Assembly: GCA_018814355.1 (NCBI GenBank)
Contig: JAHIZT010000039.1
Span: 1-39,544 of the forward strand
Source of the DNA: Candidatus Thermoplasmatota archaeon
GTDB lineage: Archaea; Thermoplasmatota; Thermoplasmata; UBA10834
Length of the DNA: 39,544 bases
Reading direction: 5' to 3'
Part shown: piece after piece, positions 25,133 through 31,817 of the stretch
Numbering within the stretch: the stretch's first letter is position 1
Layout of the letters: every line of letters starts with the position of its first letter
The notes under the pieces: model-generated
Told to the model about the DNA's origin: nothing
Seen by the model: only the letters and a program-made list of their open reading frames with translations
Database searches by the model: none
Program-made: the position numbers and the translations under genes

Positions 25133-25148
25133 CTGCTGCATGTAGCAG
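25133..25148. promoter_or_regulatory. Near-palindrome upstream of DUF3800 copy A
   Basis: CTGCTGCATGTAGCAG is palindromic but for one base pair. It ends 34 bases before the GTG start, exactly the same distance as the palindrome of the second copy. The centre CATG is shared while the arms differ but stay self-complementary, so symmetry rather than sequence is kept. An operator, or a terminal hairpin of a mobile unit, would fit. Confidence 0.5.
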
Positions 25149-25182
25149 ATAGTGTGACAATCACATTCGAAAAAAGCATGTC

Positions 25183-25818
25183 GTGCAAGGACGACATGTG
25201 GACATCTACGTCGATGAGAGTGGCGACCTGGGGTTCTCATGGCCCCGGAGTTCCAAATACTTGATAGTCGCAATGCTTGCTACTAGTGATAGTAGGCAGC
25301 TTCACAGGATTATGAAGCGGGCGCGAAGTAGATTCCGCGATTCACGGTATCCCGGTGGCGAGTTCAAGTTCAACCGGGAATCAGATGTCGTAAGAGTCTT
25401 CTTCATGGAGGCACTGGGGAAAGCAAACTGTGCAATCACGTGGACCGCTGTTGACAAGATGAAACCGCGGAGACGTTTCACAAGGGGGAGTGACCTCTAT
25501 GATCTTGCGTGCGAGGAAACGCTTCGCCAGATGTCCAGAGTGTTGGAGGCGGGTTCAATCGACATGATAATGGACTGCAGGAGATCCAAGACTAAACAGA
25601 GGCGGAATCTCGAGTCTCTGATGAATCGTGTTCTCATGTCAAATCATCCTGGTCATTTTCCGCCCGAATTGACGATAAGACACCTCGACTCTGAGAGCTG
25701 TGTGGGTCTCCAAATCCATGATTTCGTAGTAGGATCGGTGTTTCAGAGGGTCGAACGAATGAACGAACGTTATCTAAGAATCATAGAGGGAAGAGTCACA
25801 TCCTACCGAATCATCTAG
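25183..25818 (+). CDS. DUF3800 protein, copy A (intact)
   Basis: The protein has 211 residues from the GTG at 25183. The family signature opens it: HVDIYVDESGDLGFSW, a strand ending in Asp-Glu-Ser-Gly-Asp. Other marks are FKFNRESDVVRVFFMEAL, the SIDMIMDCRR strand with an Asp, and the closing LDSESCVGLQIHDFVVGSVFQ. The acidic residues ending strands suggest an RNase H-like metal site, but this is inference; the family has no settled function. A second, broken copy lies 5.8 kb downstream. Start, upstream palindrome spacing and downstream folded element match between the copies. Flanking genes are unrelated chromosomal genes, which points to insertion of a unit. Confidence 0.85.
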   Translation: MQGRHVDIYVDESGDLGFSWPRSSKYLIVAMLATSDSRQLHRIMKRARSRFRDSRYPGGEFKFNRESDVVRVFFMEALGKANCAITWTAVDKMKPRRRFTRGSDLYDLACEETLRQMSRVLEAGSIDMIMDCRRSKTKQRRNLESLMNRVLMSNHPGHFPPELTIRHLDSESCVGLQIHDFVVGSVFQRVERMNERYLRIIEGRVTSYRII

Positions 25819-25826
25819 ATAGAAAG

Positions 25827-25895
25827 GTGCAGACCCCGGGTGGAGTGTTGTTGTGTGCACCGTCCGGTACACTTTACCCCCCGGGACTTACCTGC
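25827..25895 (+). repeat. Folded 3' element of DUF3800 copy A
   Basis: This begins eight bases after the stop. It runs GTGCAG, then CCCCGGG, an inner part with GTGT...ACAC and ACC/GGT pairs, then CCCCCCGGG and CTTACCTGC. GCAG pairs with CTGC and CCCGGG with CCCGGG, giving a closed multi-part hairpin. The same frame (GTGCAG, outer stem, inner hairpin, GGGACTTACCTGC) stands behind copy B with different stem bases. It may be a structured RNA, a terminator, or a transposon end. Confidence 0.6.
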
Positions 25896-25918
25896 GTTTC
25901 TCTATTAGATGGCATGCG

Positions 25919-25926
25919 ATTTAAAC
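25919..25926 (+). promoter_or_regulatory. TATA-like box of the IMPase/NAD kinase operon
   Basis: ATTTAAAC, just after the DUF3800 element, would start a transcript near 25948. The ATG at 25909 would then be upstream of the mRNA, so the GTG at 26050 is the only in-frame start left, with a leader of about 100 bases. Confidence 0.4.
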
Positions 25927-26049
25927 GTTCCTAGCGGATGTAGCACCGATGCACTCATTCATTGGGGCAACCGGGCCGGCGCAGTCGATGAACCAGAGGA
26001 TGCGACTAGTCAGGAAAGTAATATCAATGCCTCATCCAATATTGAGCCC

Positions 26050-26835
26050 GTGAAGTCAGAACTGACAAGAATAGCCAATGCAGTCTACACCGCGTACCGT
26101 GAGCTCCCCAAGGACTACGACGGGCACATACATGTGGGAAAGGGAGCGAGCGGATCCCCGACATCTAAGATTGACAAGTTCGCCGAAGACGTCATACTCA
26201 AGTACATGGACGAGGAGGAGATCGGCCTCAACGTGCTGAGCGAGGAGGCAGGGTTCATCGACCGCGGCGGAAGCCAAGTCCTTGTTGTTGACCCGATCGA
26301 CGGGACTCTGAACTGCACGAGGGGAGTGCCGTTCTTCTCGGTCTCACTTGCCATAGGCAAGAGCAAGCTATCGGACTGCGACCACGCGCTCGTGAGGAAC
26401 CTGTCCACGGGGGACACCTACTTCGCCCGGAGAGGTGGCGGGGCAGAGCTTAACGGACACAGGATTGGCATCTCGAAGTACGACAAGGACGAGGGCATGT
26501 TCATCATCTACAATAACAAGGACTCCGCGCCGGAGACCGACCGCGTGCGAAAGATGGCCAGCAAGGTCAGGTCGTTCGGCGCAGCCTCGCTCGAGATGTG
26601 CCTGGTAGCCCAGGGCGCCGCCCAAGCCCTCTACATGAACTGCGCCAAGTTCCAGAGGATGATAAGGGTAATCGACATCGCCGCGAGCTGTCTGATACTG
26701 CGCGAGGCTGGAGGCGAGGTTGTCGACCTATCCGGGGACAAGCTCGACATGGAGTTCGACCTCCAGGACAGGAAGAACTTCCTGGCATACGGCGACCCGA
26801 TGGTCAAGGAGATGGTACTACGAGGATCGGAATAA
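26050..26835 (+). CDS. Inositol monophosphatase-family phosphatase
   Basis: The protein has 261 residues from the GTG at 26050, the normal family length; an ATG at 25909 gives 47 more residues of unlike composition. Metal-site motifs are VLSEEAGF (Glu-Glu), VVDPIDGTLNCTRGVPFFSVSLA and the late VIDIAASCLILREAGG, the IDxAA form of WDxAAG. Archaeal members act as IMPase, fructose-1,6-bisphosphatase or NADP phosphatase. The 3' end overlaps NAD kinase by 16 bases in another frame. Some methanogens have these two activities fused in one protein (MJ0917 type), so NADP(H) balance is the likely role here. The active site appears complete. Confidence 0.88.
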   Translation: MKSELTRIANAVYTAYRELPKDYDGHIHVGKGASGSPTSKIDKFAEDVILKYMDEEEIGLNVLSEEAGFIDRGGSQVLVVDPIDGTLNCTRGVPFFSVSLAIGKSKLSDCDHALVRNLSTGDTYFARRGGGAELNGHRIGISKYDKDEGMFIIYNNKDSAPETDRVRKMASKVRSFGAASLEMCLVAQGAAQALYMNCAKFQRMIRVIDIAASCLILREAGGEVVDLSGDKLDMEFDLQDRKNFLAYGDPMVKEMVLRGSE

Positions 26836-27647
26836 CCGGCACACCCGAGCTCAGGAACTTCAAGCCCGTCGCGAAGAAGGTCCTGGAAGCGCTAAAGGGA
26901 GAGGAATTCGTGGTGGAAACCCACACAGCGGAGGCCCTAGGACTAAAGGGTGAGCCGCTCCAGAAGATGAAGGTCGATGTCCTGATCACCATCGGAGGGG
27001 ACGGGACGATACTGCGCACGCTCCAGGGGAACGATGCGCCTGTCATGGGCGTGAATGCTGGAGTCCTCGGGTTCCTGACGGAGGTCCAGGGGGACGAGAT
27101 CAAGCCCGCGATCAAGAAGCTCTTGGCAGGGGAGTACCACTTGGAGAAGCGGCTCAAGCTGAAGACCACGATGAACGGCCAGAGGTTGGAGGACGCCACC
27201 AACGAGGCGGTCGTGCACACGGCCCACATCGCCAAGATGAGGCACTTCGCGATATCCGTCGACGGCACTCCGGCAACGGAGATCAGAGCGGACGGACTGA
27301 TCGTCGCGACACCGACGGGCTCGACATCGTACGCCATGAGCGTCGGCTCGTCCATCATAGACCCGCGCGTGGACGCGTTCGTCATAGCTCCCATAGCCCC
27401 GTTCCGACTCGCGGCCAGGCCGCTGGTCGTGGCAGCGAAGAGCAAGATCGCAGTCACGATCCTGGAGCCTAAGGAGTGCACAATGGTCATAGACGGCCAG
27501 TGCGAGTTCAAGATCAGAGGGGACGAGAAGCTCGTGTTCACCGCGTCCGAGAAGAAGGCGAAGTTCGTCAGCTTCAAGGACGACTTCTACAGGAACCTCG
27601 AGGAGAAGCTCATAGCATCGGCGCCTTTCGCGGCGCACAGGCATTGA
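26820..27647 (+). CDS. nadK: NAD kinase, apparent ACG start
   Basis: The protein has about 275 residues. Kinase motifs are VLITIGGDGTILR (GGDGT), MGVNAGVLGFLTEV, EAVVHTAH, and VATPTGSTSYAMSVGS; a final strand-rich domain ends the protein. It makes NADP from NAD and ATP or polyphosphate. The first family-like residues are RIGITGTPEL. No ATG, GTG or TTG exists in this frame for more than 200 bases upstream. The codon before RIG is ACG, which has AAGGAG eight bases ahead, so an ACG start is the simplest reading. A -1 shift from the IMPase gene, giving a phosphatase-kinase fusion, is the alternative; a sequencing error is a third. Confidence 0.85.
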   Translation, partial: TRIGITGTPELRNFKPVAKKVLEALKGEEFVVETHTAEALGLKGEPLQKMKVDVLITIGGDGTILRTLQGNDAPVMGVNAGVLGFLTEVQGDEIKPAIKKLLAGEYHLEKRLKLKTTMNGQRLEDATNEAVVHTAHIAKMRHFAISVDGTPATEIRADGLIVATPTGSTSYAMSVGSSIIDPRVDAFVIAPIAPFRLAARPLVVAAKSKIAVTILEPKECTMVIDGQCEFKIRGDEKLVFTASEKKAKFVSFKDDFYRNLEEKLIASAPFAAHRH

Positions 27648-27666
27648 TCCGGAGCGCGAGGACAGC

Positions 27667-28203
27667 ATGAAAGCAGTCAAGTCCGAAGCCGTCAAGATCA
27701 GCTATCAGAAGCGGTGGTTCGCGCTCGGGACGGCGACCTATGTCGCGATGACAGCCGCGCTGTTCTACCTGTCCGAGTCCTCGGTGGAGGACTCGATCAA
27801 GATCTTCTGGTTCGCTGCTGGTCTTGCCGAGGGCATACTGTTCTTCCTGTTCATCGTGCCGCCGCTGCTGACAAGCCACCTCGCGGGAGACAAAGGGCTC
27901 CGGCTGCACATGGGGCTCCTCATCGACGAGACGATCCCCTATAACTGGGTCCGGGAGATCAAAGAGTCCTCGATCCACTGGGGCGCCGTCAAGGTCGGCA
28001 TAGGCGTGAGGTACTCCGGGATCACCAGGGCTTTGTTCGTTACTTCATCTTTCAACAACTTGGTCGTCATCAAGCTGGACAAGGAGCACATGATCGGCCG
28101 GGTGTTCAGGAAACCTGTGTCGGAGATCGTCGTCAGCGTCAGCTTCGCGAAGGGTTTTCTGGACGCCATGAGTCAGAGGGCCGGGCTCGAGAGGGGAGTG
28201 TAG
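27667..28203 (+). CDS. Two-helix membrane protein with PH-like tail
   Basis: The protein has 178 residues; the ATG has GAGG seven bases upstream. Two membrane helices lie at about 16-36 and 45-67. The rest is cytoplasmic and strand-rich (IPYNWVREIKESSIHWGAVKVGIGVRYSGITRALFVTSS), like bacterial PH or YdbS-type domains, ending in a helix (SFAKGFLDAMSQRAGL). It follows NAD kinase by 19 bases and precedes a JAMM protease, so it is probably cotranscribed with them. No known function. Confidence 0.7.
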   Translation: MKAVKSEAVKISYQKRWFALGTATYVAMTAALFYLSESSVEDSIKIFWFAAGLAEGILFFLFIVPPLLTSHLAGDKGLRLHMGLLIDETIPYNWVREIKESSIHWGAVKVGIGVRYSGITRALFVTSSFNNLVVIKLDKEHMIGRVFRKPVSEIVVSVSFAKGFLDAMSQRAGLERGV

Positions 28204-28245
28204 GCCCTGCCCCTGTTCGATTTCTCCAAGGACCCGCGCGCGAAC

Positions 28246-28611
28246 GTGCACAGCATCAAGAAGCGGACGCTCAAGATGATCCTCGAGGCGTCGAAGTCGC
28301 AGTACCCCGAGGAGTTCGGGGCGCTGCTGAGGGCCGAGAAGGGCGTCATCTACGAGCTCATACTCCTTCCGGGCACGATCGCCGGGGAGAGGCATGCGAT
28401 CTTCCATTTCAGCAACCTGCCGATAGATTCCACAGTCGTCGGTACGATCCACTCGCACCCTTCAGGGGCGATCCATCCCTCGGGAGCCGATGTGGACCTG
28501 TTCGGCAAGTTCGGCTGGATCCATATCATCACAGGGTACCCGTTCGAGAGGCAGAGCTGGGGCTGCTTCGATTCCAACGGGGAGCCGAGGCAGCTCAAGG
28601 TAGTCGATTGA
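28246..28611 (+). CDS. JAMM/MPN metalloprotease-like protein
   Basis: The protein has 121 residues from a GTG at 28246. The JAMM site is complete: Glu in PEEFGALL, then HSHPSGAIHPSGADVD (H-x-H-x7-S-x2-D). Archaeal stand-alone JAMM proteins remove SAMP-type ubiquitin-like modifiers or process ThiS/MoaD-like proteins. The frame is open back to 28204 and the residues there (LFDFSKDPRAN) look like coding sequence, but only CTG codons are available, so either the start is the GTG or it is a rare codon. The gene is last in the run from the IMPase gene. Its target modifier is not in the window. Confidence 0.85.
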   Translation: MHSIKKRTLKMILEASKSQYPEEFGALLRAEKGVIYELILLPGTIAGERHAIFHFSNLPIDSTVVGTIHSHPSGAIHPSGADVDLFGKFGWIHIITGYPFERQSWGCFDSNGEPRQLKVVD

Positions 28612-28614
28612 TAC

Positions 28615-29535
28615 TCAATCGCTTGCCTTTCTTGACGGGCGGGCTCTGCCAAGCGTTCTTGTGTACAGATCAATTGCCCGCTGGCTCGACAGCCAGTCCC
28701 CACGAACCATCAGGGCCGGCAACTGGCCCTGCCCTGCCCTAAGCGAAAGGTACTGTGCCGAGTAACCGCTCTTCCGGGAGAAGGATTTCAGCTGTTTCAA
28801 CTCATCTTCCCGGGTCCCGACTTGATCGAGAAGATCGAGGAGCGAGTGCGCCATCAGCACACGGACGAACTCGACCAGACGGGACAGGTCGCCGTCGTTC
28901 GCGCTCTCCATGCACGAGAGATATCGCCTTCGGTTCTGAGGCAGCACGTGAACAGGAGGCCAGTTGTGCTTGAGGAAATGGAGGTTCAGGAGCAGCCTGC
29001 CTACGCGCCCGTTGCCGTCGCTGAACGGATGGATCGACTCGAACTCGTTGTGCATCCAGGCGCCGAGGTCGAACACTGGATCTCCTTCCCTGTCCCTTCT
29101 TGAGTATTCTCTAGCCCATTCCTCCATCATGGGCACGACCTTCTCCATCCGCGGCAGAGCGAAGCTCGACCCCGCTATCCTGACATTGACCCTGCGCCAC
29201 TGCCCAGAACCCTCCTTGACCCCTCTGAAGACCGCATCGTGGAGATCCTGGACCAATACCAGCGATATGAGCTTTGTGCGGAGGGCCAGTAGTCTACGGA
29301 ACGCGGCCTCGTGCTGGATGGTCTCCAGGACATCCTTGATCGGTCTGTTCGCGACGCTCTTCTGCTGAAGCAGCAGCTTCTCGACATCGGACCAGGTCAG
29401 CGTGTTGCCCTCGATTGCGTTAGTGCCCCAGGTGTTGAGAGCGCTCGCCCTCTTCCATACACCGTCGGGCAGACCGTCAAGAGGAGTGCGGGTGAGGAAT
29501 TCGTCTCGCAGGGCATCAAGTATGATATTCCTCAT
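28615..29535 (-). CDS. Fic-domain AMP-transferase
   Basis: The protein has 306 residues from the ATG at 29535; one six codons earlier is possible, but a TATA-like element just upstream puts the transcript start near 29540. The catalytic motif is HPFSDGNGRVGR, complete with His and the GNGR anion site. Before it, TNAIEGN fits the inhibitory helix (S/T-x3-E-G/N) of class II, so the enzyme probably controls itself. A helical Fic N-terminal domain leads, and a winged-helix-like C-terminal domain ends the protein. Such proteins attach AMP to a target hydroxyl. There is no toxin-antitoxin partner, and the upstream patch is clearly AT-rich. Confidence 0.9.
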   Translation of the reverse strand: MRNIILDALRDEFLTRTPLDGLPDGVWKRASALNTWGTNAIEGNTLTWSDVEKLLLQQKSVANRPIKDVLETIQHEAAFRRLLALRTKLISLVLVQDLHDAVFRGVKEGSGQWRRVNVRIAGSSFALPRMEKVVPMMEEWAREYSRRDREGDPVFDLGAWMHNEFESIHPFSDGNGRVGRLLLNLHFLKHNWPPVHVLPQNRRRYLSCMESANDGDLSRLVEFVRVLMAHSLLDLLDQVGTREDELKQLKSFSRKSGYSAQYLSLRAGQGQLPALMVRGDWLSSQRAIDLYTRTLGRARPSRKASD

Positions 29536-29648
29536 GTGTGGTCTATATTTCATACAAAGTATATCAATCTATATGATAAATGTAGTGAAATTGAAGAAAA
29601 TCATATAAAGGGGTTTGCGTGGAGCGTTTTTCACGCACAGGCCACGCC

Positions 29649-30860
29649 TTAGACCGATCCCGCGGCGGCCCAATAGGCGTACAGGAAGTCCTCCCAGCCG
29701 TCGGCCATGAAGGAGTAGGCCCAGTAGTAACCGGGCGTCTCCCACGAATGGTTGGGGAAGACTATCCCAAGCCCGTTGATCTGGTGGTCCATTGTGTTGG
29801 TAGTCTGGACCGCCAGGACGGTCTTGTCGAAGTTGGCGAGCACGAGCGCGCAAGCGTCCTTGACCGCGCTCGACCGAGTGTTCTTAGCGATGAGCTCGAC
29901 GAACCGCTTGAAATCTACCAGGTTGATCGAGTTCGCAGCGTACGAGAAGCACGCTCCTCCTCTGGACTTCGAAACGATTCCTGCGTTGGCCTTCATGTCC
30001 TGCATCAGGAGCTCCGTGAGGTCGAAGAACGATGCGGCTGTCGCTCCCACGGCTGCGAGATCGACCGCAGCGTGGCCGTTGACCTCCTCACCCATGTACG
30101 GGGGCACTGACAGCAGCTTCTGGACCTCGTCTATGAACATGATCGAAGCCTCCCTGGGCGTCATGTACGGGTTCTCCACCAGTCCTCTGAGGGTCGCGTC
30201 GTACGGGTACCCTCTCCAGCCGGTGAATGTCTCACTGACGAGCAGGTACTGCGTGTTGAGTCCTCCCTTGAGCCACTGGTATGCGACGTCTATCTGCCCC
30301 ACATTGCACTCGTCCGTGCCGATCACATCCACGTGGTAGCCCTTGAGGGCCAGAGTGACTTCGTCGATCGTCAGCGCATCAGCCGGGTGGTCGTCCCAGG
30401 CAACCATACGAGGCGAGCCGTGATCCCAGAACATCAGCACTGTGTGCTCCGCAGGGGCGGCCTTGAACGTGTAGGAGATCAGGGAACGGAGTGTCATCGG
30501 GTCGCCCATGTTGGCCTCTTTGCCGTTGAGGGCGAAATCCTTGAGCTCCACCATCTGTCCTGGCAGAACCCTGAAAAGATTCGCAGGGCCGTCGAACCTG
30601 TCAGCGAAGACGAACATCGCCACGTCCTTGGACCCGCCGACGGACATAAGCTCGTCGTAGTCGCTCTCGACTACGGGCTCGTGATGCGCGCCCGCATACA
30701 CGTCCAGGCTATTGTCAGCGTCCAGATAGAGGATGTACCTCCACTGGGCCACATCGGGGCCCTTCCCGGCAGGCGGGCCCGCCTTCGCGACTGGAATCGC
30801 GAGCATGCCCACGACGACGATCAACGCTATCAGAGACACCACTAATGCTTTAGCTCTCAA
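29649..30860 (-). CDS. Secreted clostripain-family (C11) cysteine protease
   Basis: The protein has 403 residues. It starts with a TTG behind GGGAGGGG, a strong ribosome site. Residues 1-27 are a signal peptide (RAKALVVSLIALIVVVGMLAIPVAKA), and the mature part begins near GPPAGKG. The peptidase fold has YILYLDADNSLD, the catalytic His147 in WDHGSP and Cys185 in GTDECNVGQ. The remaining half holds TFTGWRGYPYDATL and ends with aromatic-rich FPNHSWETPGYYW. Clostripain-type proteases cut after Arg or Lys. It should act outside the cell on peptides, as seen in protein-degrading archaea. The gene is monocistronic. Both catalytic residues are kept. Confidence 0.85.
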   Translation of the reverse strand: MRAKALVVSLIALIVVVGMLAIPVAKAGPPAGKGPDVAQWRYILYLDADNSLDVYAGAHHEPVVESDYDELMSVGGSKDVAMFVFADRFDGPANLFRVLPGQMVELKDFALNGKEANMGDPMTLRSLISYTFKAAPAEHTVLMFWDHGSPRMVAWDDHPADALTIDEVTLALKGYHVDVIGTDECNVGQIDVAYQWLKGGLNTQYLLVSETFTGWRGYPYDATLRGLVENPYMTPREASIMFIDEVQKLLSVPPYMGEEVNGHAAVDLAAVGATAASFFDLTELLMQDMKANAGIVSKSRGGACFSYAANSINLVDFKRFVELIAKNTRSSAVKDACALVLANFDKTVLAVQTTNTMDHQINGLGIVFPNHSWETPGYYWAYSFMADGWEDFLYAYWAAAGSV

Positions 30861-30900
30861 TTGACAGCCCCTCCCCCTGGTTTCCTACCTAGGTCAGTAC

Positions 30901-30957
30901 CCCGAATGGCGACTTGATTATTTATGGATGTTGTGAGACGACGCTGCGCCATTCGGG
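30901..30957. repeat. 11-bp inverted repeat upstream of DUF3800 copy B
   Basis: CCCGAATGGCG at 30901-30911 is matched exactly by CGCCATTCGGG at 30947-30957. The 35 bases between include TTATTTATGG, a TATA-like element. The right arm is 6 bases from the 16-bp palindrome. A close variant of the right arm (GCGCCATTCCG) recurs in the folded element after the gene, near 31691. Copy A has no such pair. Confidence 0.5.
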
Positions 30958-30963
30958 CAGGGA

Positions 30964-30979
30964 GCACTACATGTAGTGC
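30964..30979. promoter_or_regulatory. Perfect 16-bp palindrome upstream of DUF3800 copy B
   Basis: GCACTACATGTAGTGC is a perfect palindrome ending 34 bases before the GTG start, as in copy A. The central CATG is common; the arms differ from copy A but complement one another. Confidence 0.6.
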
Positions 30980-31013
30980 AAGAGACGAACCTGCTGATGT
31001 CCACCTTGGGATT

Positions 31014-31655
31014 GTGACCCAGGGCGTCTTGGACGTCTTCGTAGATGAGAGCGGAGACTTCGGCTTCTCCCACAAGGGAGGTTCCCAGCATATCGTCATG
31101 ACCGCAATGGCCACGGACAACGCCGCTGTCCTGGGAAGACTGGCAAAGAGAGCTCGGAGGAAGATGAGTATCCAAGGAATGACCGCCCAGGAATTCAAGT
31201 TCAAGGGGAGCTCGGACTGGATGCGATTTCACTTCCTGAGGGGGATTGCAGAAAGCAATTGCGAGATATCGTGGGTGGGGGTCCGAAAGGAGAACGTATG
31301 CGAGAAATACGTAGAACGGAGAGAGCTACTATACCAGCTCATGTGCAGAGCTGTCTTAGGACCTGTCTTCAAGAGAGTCCGCGGGAACACAGTCAACATT
31401 GTATTTGACAGACGGACCGAGAAATGGCTTCTGTAAATCGAACTCGACCTCTTTGTCGGGAGCATCATGTCCCAGAACTGCTCAGGCGCCTTCCCGCCCA
31501 GGTTGAAAATCAGACACGTCGACTCACGAAGATCTCCGCAGCTCCAAGCCAACGATTTCGTGACAGGCGCGCTCTTCCAACTTGTAGAGAGGGAGAACGC
31601 ACACTACTATGACGTAATTGGCGAACGAGTGGTTGATGGTACTCTTATCATCTAG
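31014..31655 (+). pseudogene. DUF3800 protein, copy B (nonsense codon)
   Basis: The frame starts with GTG and reads VTQGVLDVFVDESGDFGFS, the same start layout as copy A (GTG ten codons before the Asp of DESGD). It is open to a TAA at 31434-31436 and then continues in the same frame without further stops to 31655: EKWLL, stop, IELDLFVGSIMSQ, and later RHVD, LQANDFVTGALFQ, ending with Ile-Ile and TAG as in copy A. The lone in-frame stop falls where copy A has a Gln/Arg-rich helix. Full length would be about 213 residues. I call it a recent pseudogene; read-through or a sequencing error is possible. It differs strongly from copy A, so it is not a new duplicate. Confidence 0.75.
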
Positions 31656-31659
31656 AAAA

Positions 31660-31733
31660 GTGCAGCCCCCGGACGGAGTTTTTTTCTGGGGCGCCATTCC
31701 GACGCCCGCTATACCGTCCGGGACTTACCTGCA
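31660..31733 (+). repeat. Folded 3' element of DUF3800 copy B
   Basis: This begins five bases after the stop. GTGCAG is followed by CCCGGACGG, which pairs perfectly with CCGTCCGGG (31714-31722); an inner GGGCG/CGCCC hairpin and a T7 run lie within; the end is GGGACTTACCTGCA, where CTGCA pairs with TGCAG. Ends and architecture equal those after copy A, with changed but still pairing stems, the sign of selection on structure. Confidence 0.65.
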
Positions 31734-31817
31734 ATTGACAATACTGCGACATCCCATAAGTATGTTGCGCGCGGATGTAGCCGCAATCCAGCTACCGTCA
31801 CATGGATGACGATACCA

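Follow-up and report, generated by a model that had tools for sequence, protein, structure and literature searches.

Organization of the two DUF3800 units

The window analysed here (the whole stretch of 39,544 nucleotides from a Candidatus Thermoplasmatota archaeon) carries two copies of a unit which almost certainly consists of a gene for a predicted DUF3800 nuclease and a small RNA gene converging on it (Table 1). The layout described in the first-pass annotation, i.e., a palindrome, exactly 34 bases, a GTG start codon, the DESGD motif, a stop codon following Ile-Ile and a folded element, was found in both copies, and the proteins are indeed well diverged, with copies 1 and 2 being 35% identical. 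The folded elements (25825-25899 and 31658-31736) score 82.4 and 73.3 bits, respectively, with the covariance model R1. An additional fixed 3' part was identified in nearly all copies, in which CTTACCTGC is followed by exactly 40 nt and then by GGATGTAGC or a close variant. The DUF3800 reading frame of copy 2 is interrupted by an in-frame TAA at 31434-31436 (codon 141), so that either the gene is broken or the sequence is in error at this position. In total, the host genome possesses six DUF3800 genes, five of them with the element, whereby three of these form a tandem array on contigs C7/C111, and similar DUF3800 arrays with units in both orientations were found in relatives of the same genus and of the same family. 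A Fic-family gene (28615-29553; PADLOC SoFic and PDC-S04 matches) is located between the two units.

Table 1. Features of the two DUF3800 units in the window
Feature	Position	Strand	Description	Evidence
Palindrome, copy 1 (CTGCTGCATGTAGCAG)	25133..25148	none	7/8 pairs match, 1 mismatched; CTGCATGTAG core starts 47 nt ahead of the DUF3800 start codon; interpreted as promoter/operator element of the mRNA	Sequence
DUF3800 gene, copy 1	25183..25818	+	GTG start, 211 aa, intact	PF12686, AlphaFold2, Foldseek, alignment
Small RNA gene, copy 1	25829..25895	-	5'-GCAGGUAAGUCC...GGUCUGC-3'; T-rich tail faces the DUF3800 stop	Covariance models R1/R2, strand tests
TATA box, small RNA copy 1	25920..25925	-	TTTAAA, about 25-30 nt upstream of the RNA	A/T profile over 30+35 copies
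Upstream promoter element, small RNA copy 1	25936..25944	-	GCTACATCC; CTACAT at -48	Fixed 40-nt spacing
Palindrome, copy 2 (GCACTACATGTAGTGC)	30964..30979	none	Perfect 16 bp	Sequence
DUF3800 gene, copy 2	31014..31655	+	GTG start; interrupted by in-frame TAA	PF12686 across one TAA, translation
Small RNA gene, copy 2	31662..31732	-	Intact despite interrupted DUF3800	R1 73.3 bits, R2 71.5 bits
TATA-like box, small RNA copy 2	31756..31763	-	ATACTTAT	Sequence, A/T profile
Upstream promoter element, small RNA copy 2	31773..31781	-	GCTACATCC	Fixed 40-nt spacing

The DUF3800 protein

Copy 1 matches Pfam family PF12686 with 45.6 bits (gathering cut-off 21) and copy 2 with 43.3 bits when read across one TAA. 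For the AlphaFold2 model of copy 1 (pLDDT 93, pTM 0.90), Foldseek identified archaeal RNase HII (1eke) as the best solved match (E 1.6e-5, TM 0.63/0.60), followed by much weaker matches, Argonaute PIWI domains being among them. The RNase HII active site comprises four acidic residues, the first two of which form an Asp-Glu pair. Within the protein alignment, D11, E12, K62, K92 and D180 are invariant, while E60 and D131 are near-invariant. A Pfam search with the copy 1 protein returned no RNase HII family match, and a sequence search of the PDB with the protein profile returned nothing meaningful. Judged from the model, the DUF3800 protein is predicted to fold RNase HII-like with conserved acidic residues, and it is probably an active nuclease. 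An RNase H fold was previously reported for another DUF3800 protein (PMC10910872); the window protein shares with PF12686 proteins this RNase H-like fold and the above-cut-off Pfam match, but differs in being short, single-domain and structurally closest to RNase HII.

Structure and strand of the small RNA

In family f1, model R1 recovers 31 distinct elements, which score 57-85 bits, with all else at 15.3 bits or less. The RNA is closed by the outer stem GCAG/CUGC; inside it, an asymmetric internal loop leads to a second stem (CCYGGn), which is capped by an apical hairpin. Compensatory changes occur at several pairs, and different lineages share the GGUAAG loop. The folded 3' element noticed in the first-pass annotation is real as a structure; its strand, however, had been misassigned, as the RNA gene lies opposite to DUF3800 and converges on it. 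On the DUF3800 strand, the non-Watson-Crick cells of the alignment are 36 A·C and 7 G·U, as compared to 36 G·U and 7 A·C on the opposite strand, where 96.9% of the cells are paired versus about 93%. The alignment-free folding energy is lower on the opposite strand for 28/30 copies of f1 and 32/35 other copies, a count (60/65) made over related and thus not independent sequences. Upstream of the RNA, an A/T block is found at -29 to -26 (93-100% in f1 and similar elsewhere) and another one at -11/-10, while T is enriched immediately past the RNA 3' end in the profile over 30+35 copies. In A/T-rich relatives the TATA box is clearly recognizable as TTTATAT or TTTAAAT, and archaeal TATA boxes are located approximately 26 nt ahead of the transcription start. 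This promoter evidence is separate from the pairing and folding counts, the P values of which are overstated because the sequences are not independent. Since the A·C/G·U bias, the folding energies and the TATA-type promoter agree, the small RNA possesses its own archaeal promoter on the strand opposite DUF3800, and an RNA encoded on the DUF3800 strand was rejected on these three grounds.

From the TATA position and the T-rich tail it follows that the first base of the RNA is the first stem base or lies only a few bases from it, and that the RNA runs out in the T-rich tail, giving a length of about 70-75 nt which leaves no room for a guide. The 40-nt stretch was considered as a guide or spacer and rejected, for its length is constant and it holds the TATA box at a constant place; a guide RNA was likewise rejected, as no variable segment exists between promoter and tail.

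In f1, a CTACAT element is found at -48 of the small RNA, and in most genes of this family the core of the palindrome begins 47-49 nt ahead of the DUF3800 start codon. The same position relative to RNA and gene suggests one promoter element used twice, i.e., that the left palindrome is the CTACAT element of the RNA promoter, located at about -48 of a DUF3800 mRNA which would then probably be leaderless. Neither element nor palindrome was seen in the families other than f1. The earlier view of the palindrome as the left end of an element was not supported, since at -48 the palindrome and the 3' motif both look like promoter elements and not like demonstrated transposon ends; that GGATGTAGC and the palindrome are such ends is conceivable but need not be assumed, as both lie at about -48 of a start and come without target duplication.

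Distribution of the gene-RNA pair and relation to known RNA families

A second covariance model, R2, built on the RNA strand, was searched over 400 genomes of the class and matched in 37 of them, covering eleven families. As an independent sample, 79 DUF3800 loci were chosen from bacterial and archaeal genomes by protein similarity alone. In 55 of these, either R2 (E<=0.05) or one of the Rfam families DUF3800-X, -V and -IX identified an RNA on the opposite strand, placed at a median of 2 nt past the DUF3800 stop codon; one R2 match lies on the gene strand, elsewhere in its locus (L139). Many loci show a convergent overlap of RNA and DUF3800 at the stop codon. All matches to DUF3800-X, -V and -IX lie opposite the DUF3800 strand and at the same relative place, and the R2 and DUF3800-X models match the same sites in 10 loci, although R2 is mostly weak there. 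Neither of the two outcomes that the first-pass annotation had set as refuting was obtained: other DUF3800 genes have the element beside them, and its number, 0 to 7 per genome, shows that it is no common terminator. Whether it always follows DUF3800 had been asked as well: the pairing recurs in dozens of lineages, but orphan RNAs without DUF3800 also exist.

In an Rfam search of the window with E up to 5, the small RNAs gave no match and the real matches were tRNAs only; accordingly, the gathering cut-off of the DUF3800-X RNA (RF02984) was not reached. They nevertheless resemble DUF3800-X in the outer stem, a GUAAG(U) 5' in the internal loop, an inner stem starting from CC and the apical hairpin, and share with DUF3800-X, DUF3800-V (RF02964) and DUF3800-IX (RF02968) the strand and place relative to DUF3800. 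They differ from these three in stem and hairpin sequence, in forming tandem arrays and in the CTACAT promoter element. With a conserved structure, the opposite strand and a position at the 3' end of the gene, the window RNAs possess what defines the DUF3800-associated small RNAs, and since they share the DUF3800-X topology and strand but reach no Rfam family, they are a new archaeal subgroup of these known, functionally unexplained RNAs.

Several further loci were noted. DUF3800 genes of family f6 have apparent convergent RNAs (L074 after position 2064, L078 and L081 after 2085) with (A/G)UAAGnCC motifs, occurring twice in L074, and a TATA box, all read by eye. In a different DUF3800 subfamily (PF12686 at 25-29 bits), represented by L009 (own contig C119) and L018, a hairpin RNA that has a TATA box of its own likewise converges on the gene. 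This RNA, 5'-GUGAGAAGGAGGGCGUCGUGAUGUCGCUAGGCCUUCUCAC-3', is present in three copies near the gene in C119 and has no Rfam match. In a Methanolobus genome, a CRISPR array (CRISPR-DR7; L179, 3582-4791) begins approximately 400 nt past a DUF3800-RNA pair.

Gain and loss of units and orphan RNAs

Both loci of the window were found empty in relatives, the unit being missing as a whole. The gene order surrounding copy 1 is kept in six genomes of the same genus, none of which holds the unit (6/6), while at the copy 2 locus one genome of the same genus lacks it; no target-site duplication was visible when both window loci were compared to the empty sites. Units are gained and lost whole. Together with the covariation and with the RNA following DUF3800 in dozens of lineages, this presence or absence of whole units upholds the initial proposal that a unit, and not only a gene, is under selection.

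Protein and RNA do not persist equally. Family f1 comprises 18 intact pairs, three RNAs with a broken DUF3800, nine RNAs alone and one at a contig end; in the class outside f1, 15-16 intact pairs, six broken DUF3800 genes and about 14 RNAs alone were counted, some of them near contig ends. Among 17 genomes chosen for holding orphan or broken-partner RNAs, 14 are devoid of any DUF3800 match, and two of these 14 are single contigs with 99% completeness. Conversely, all intact DUF3800 genes to which the subfamily model gives more than 150 bits are accompanied by this RNA or a DUF3800-X-type RNA (that of L071 being assigned by eye, from near-identity to L070), and no intact DUF3800 of the window subfamily was seen without one. 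Protein and RNA distances correlate with r = 0.80 (0.38 and 0.74 within clades) and the nearest RNA relative comes from the same protein clade in 18/18 cases, mixed arrays included; this is no proof of contact, as linked genes co-diverge anyway.

Weak PADLOC PDC-M04A matches were obtained, and orphan RNAs adjoin HsdM/HsdS, AlbA_2 and AbiEii genes; in L109 (1404-1670), a type I restriction-modification locus has an orphan RNA between HsdS and HsdM. The orphan RNAs of L106, L107, L108, L112, L115, L122 and L128 adjoin a small, very basic protein (approximately 110 aa, PADLOC PDC-S38); several of these loci also have an AlbA_2/HATPase, HsdM or AbiEii neighbour, and most of the genomes concerned are without a DUF3800 match.

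Many arrays (L007, L008, L011, L050, L054, L055, L056) are located at the 3' end of a 538-aa gene that belongs to no known family and of which copies of only the last approximately 84 codons intersperse the DUF3800 units, so that this gene end looks like an integration hot spot. One array (L007, 1774-2841) includes a 356-aa gene with no Pfam or NCBIfam match.

A proposed toxin-antitoxin function and its alternatives

Two functional analogies had been offered initially, an IS200/IS605-TnpB element and a toxin with an RNA partner. The latter is the reading favoured here, whereby the RNA outliving the enzyme, the pairing and the defence context speak for it, while toxicity, binding and neutralisation are inferred. 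With a probability of roughly one half, the small RNA would be the antitoxin of a DUF3800 nuclease toxin. It would bind its cognate DUF3800 protein and hold the nuclease inactive, until loss of the unit, or an invader disturbing the RNA, frees the nuclease; such a pair may serve defence or self-maintenance. That the enzyme of this subfamily was not found without the RNA whereas the RNA is often found without the enzyme is the pattern expected of a toxin with an RNA antidote, and the HsdM/HsdS, AlbA_2 and AbiEii neighbours together with the weak PADLOC matches fit a defence role. As counterpoints, orphan RNAs conserved in genomes that lack DUF3800 could act in their own right, and an RNA cofactor instead of an inhibitor would give the same linkage.

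The latter thought leads to the main rival, according to which DUF3800 is an RNA-dependent nuclease that needs the small RNA as its scaffold or activator, i.e., part of a ribonucleoprotein effector acting, e.g., in defence. The tight gene-RNA pairing and co-divergence as well as the RNase H-like fold are consistent with it, as is the reported link of DUF3800 to ncRNAs and to some type V and VI CRISPR loci (PMC10910872, PMC12669027). However, an intact RNA often outlasts a broken or absent DUF3800, which is unexpected for a pure cofactor, and the RNA has no variable stretch with which to guide; this explanation is considered less likely than the antitoxin function. Less plausible is that the function resides mainly in the RNA, which would have a host or phage target of its own, with DUF3800 as an optional processing enzyme. 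Orphan RNAs with promoters and similar neighbours (families f4, f13, f14 and f25), beside the PDC-S38-type basic protein and defence genes, would fit this assumption, yet the single fixed geometry of RNA and DUF3800 in the protein-selected samples argues against it. Antisense regulation, in which the RNA base-pairs with the DUF3800 mRNA at its 3' end in a type I-like manner and is structured for stability, could draw on the convergent overlap at the stop codon; it is considered improbable, as the compensatory changes preserve the internal structure of the RNA, the GGUAAG loop is conserved across lineages and orphan RNAs have no mRNA partner to pair with.

The TnpB analogy, i.e., a mobile element with a palindromic left end and a 3' guide RNA, was not sustained and is very improbable. 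Presence or absence of whole units at conserved loci would suit it, and an RNase H-superfamily nuclease beside a 3' structured RNA recalls TnpB and its omega-RNA; in the window, however, the RNA has a promoter of its own on the opposite strand and no guide segment, the protein fold is RNase HII-like, no target-site duplication was seen, the Pfam search found only DUF3800 and neither TnpB nor TnpA in the unit, and the Rfam families HEARO and IS605-orfB gave no match in the window. An ordinary bidirectional terminator, to which the hairpin and T-rich tail past the stop codon would correspond, is practically dismissed by the 0-7 copies per genome at DUF3800 clusters or orphan sites, the absence behind unrelated genes, the complex covarying structure and the separate promoter.

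Assuming the antitoxin function, the closest known counterpart would be the type III system ToxIN, the likeness being a proposed one, namely a structured RNA holding a nuclease. In ToxIN, however, a tandem-repeat RNA, ToxI, precedes the toxin gene within one operon, and the toxin fold is unrelated to DUF3800; in the window units, by contrast, one convergent RNA has its own promoter and the protein fold is another, which places them outside type III. Literature searches yielded no RNA antitoxin of a toxin with an RNase H fold, and we know of no RNA-antitoxin system with such a layout or fold. Tentatively, one may envisage DUF3800 proteins across Bacteria and Archaea as a large group of toxins or abortive-infection nucleases with an RNase HII-like fold, in which every member is kept in check by a small RNA that converges on its gene from a separate promoter. 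In layout and fold, such pairs would differ from toxin-antitoxin types I and III and constitute a type of their own. The DUF3800-associated RNAs have stood in catalogues for years with no function attached, and some CRISPR loci of types V and VI come with a DUF3800 gene; with the correct strand, the promoter, the partner and the finding that the RNA outlives the protein, an unexplained catalogue entry becomes a simple question of binding and toxicity.
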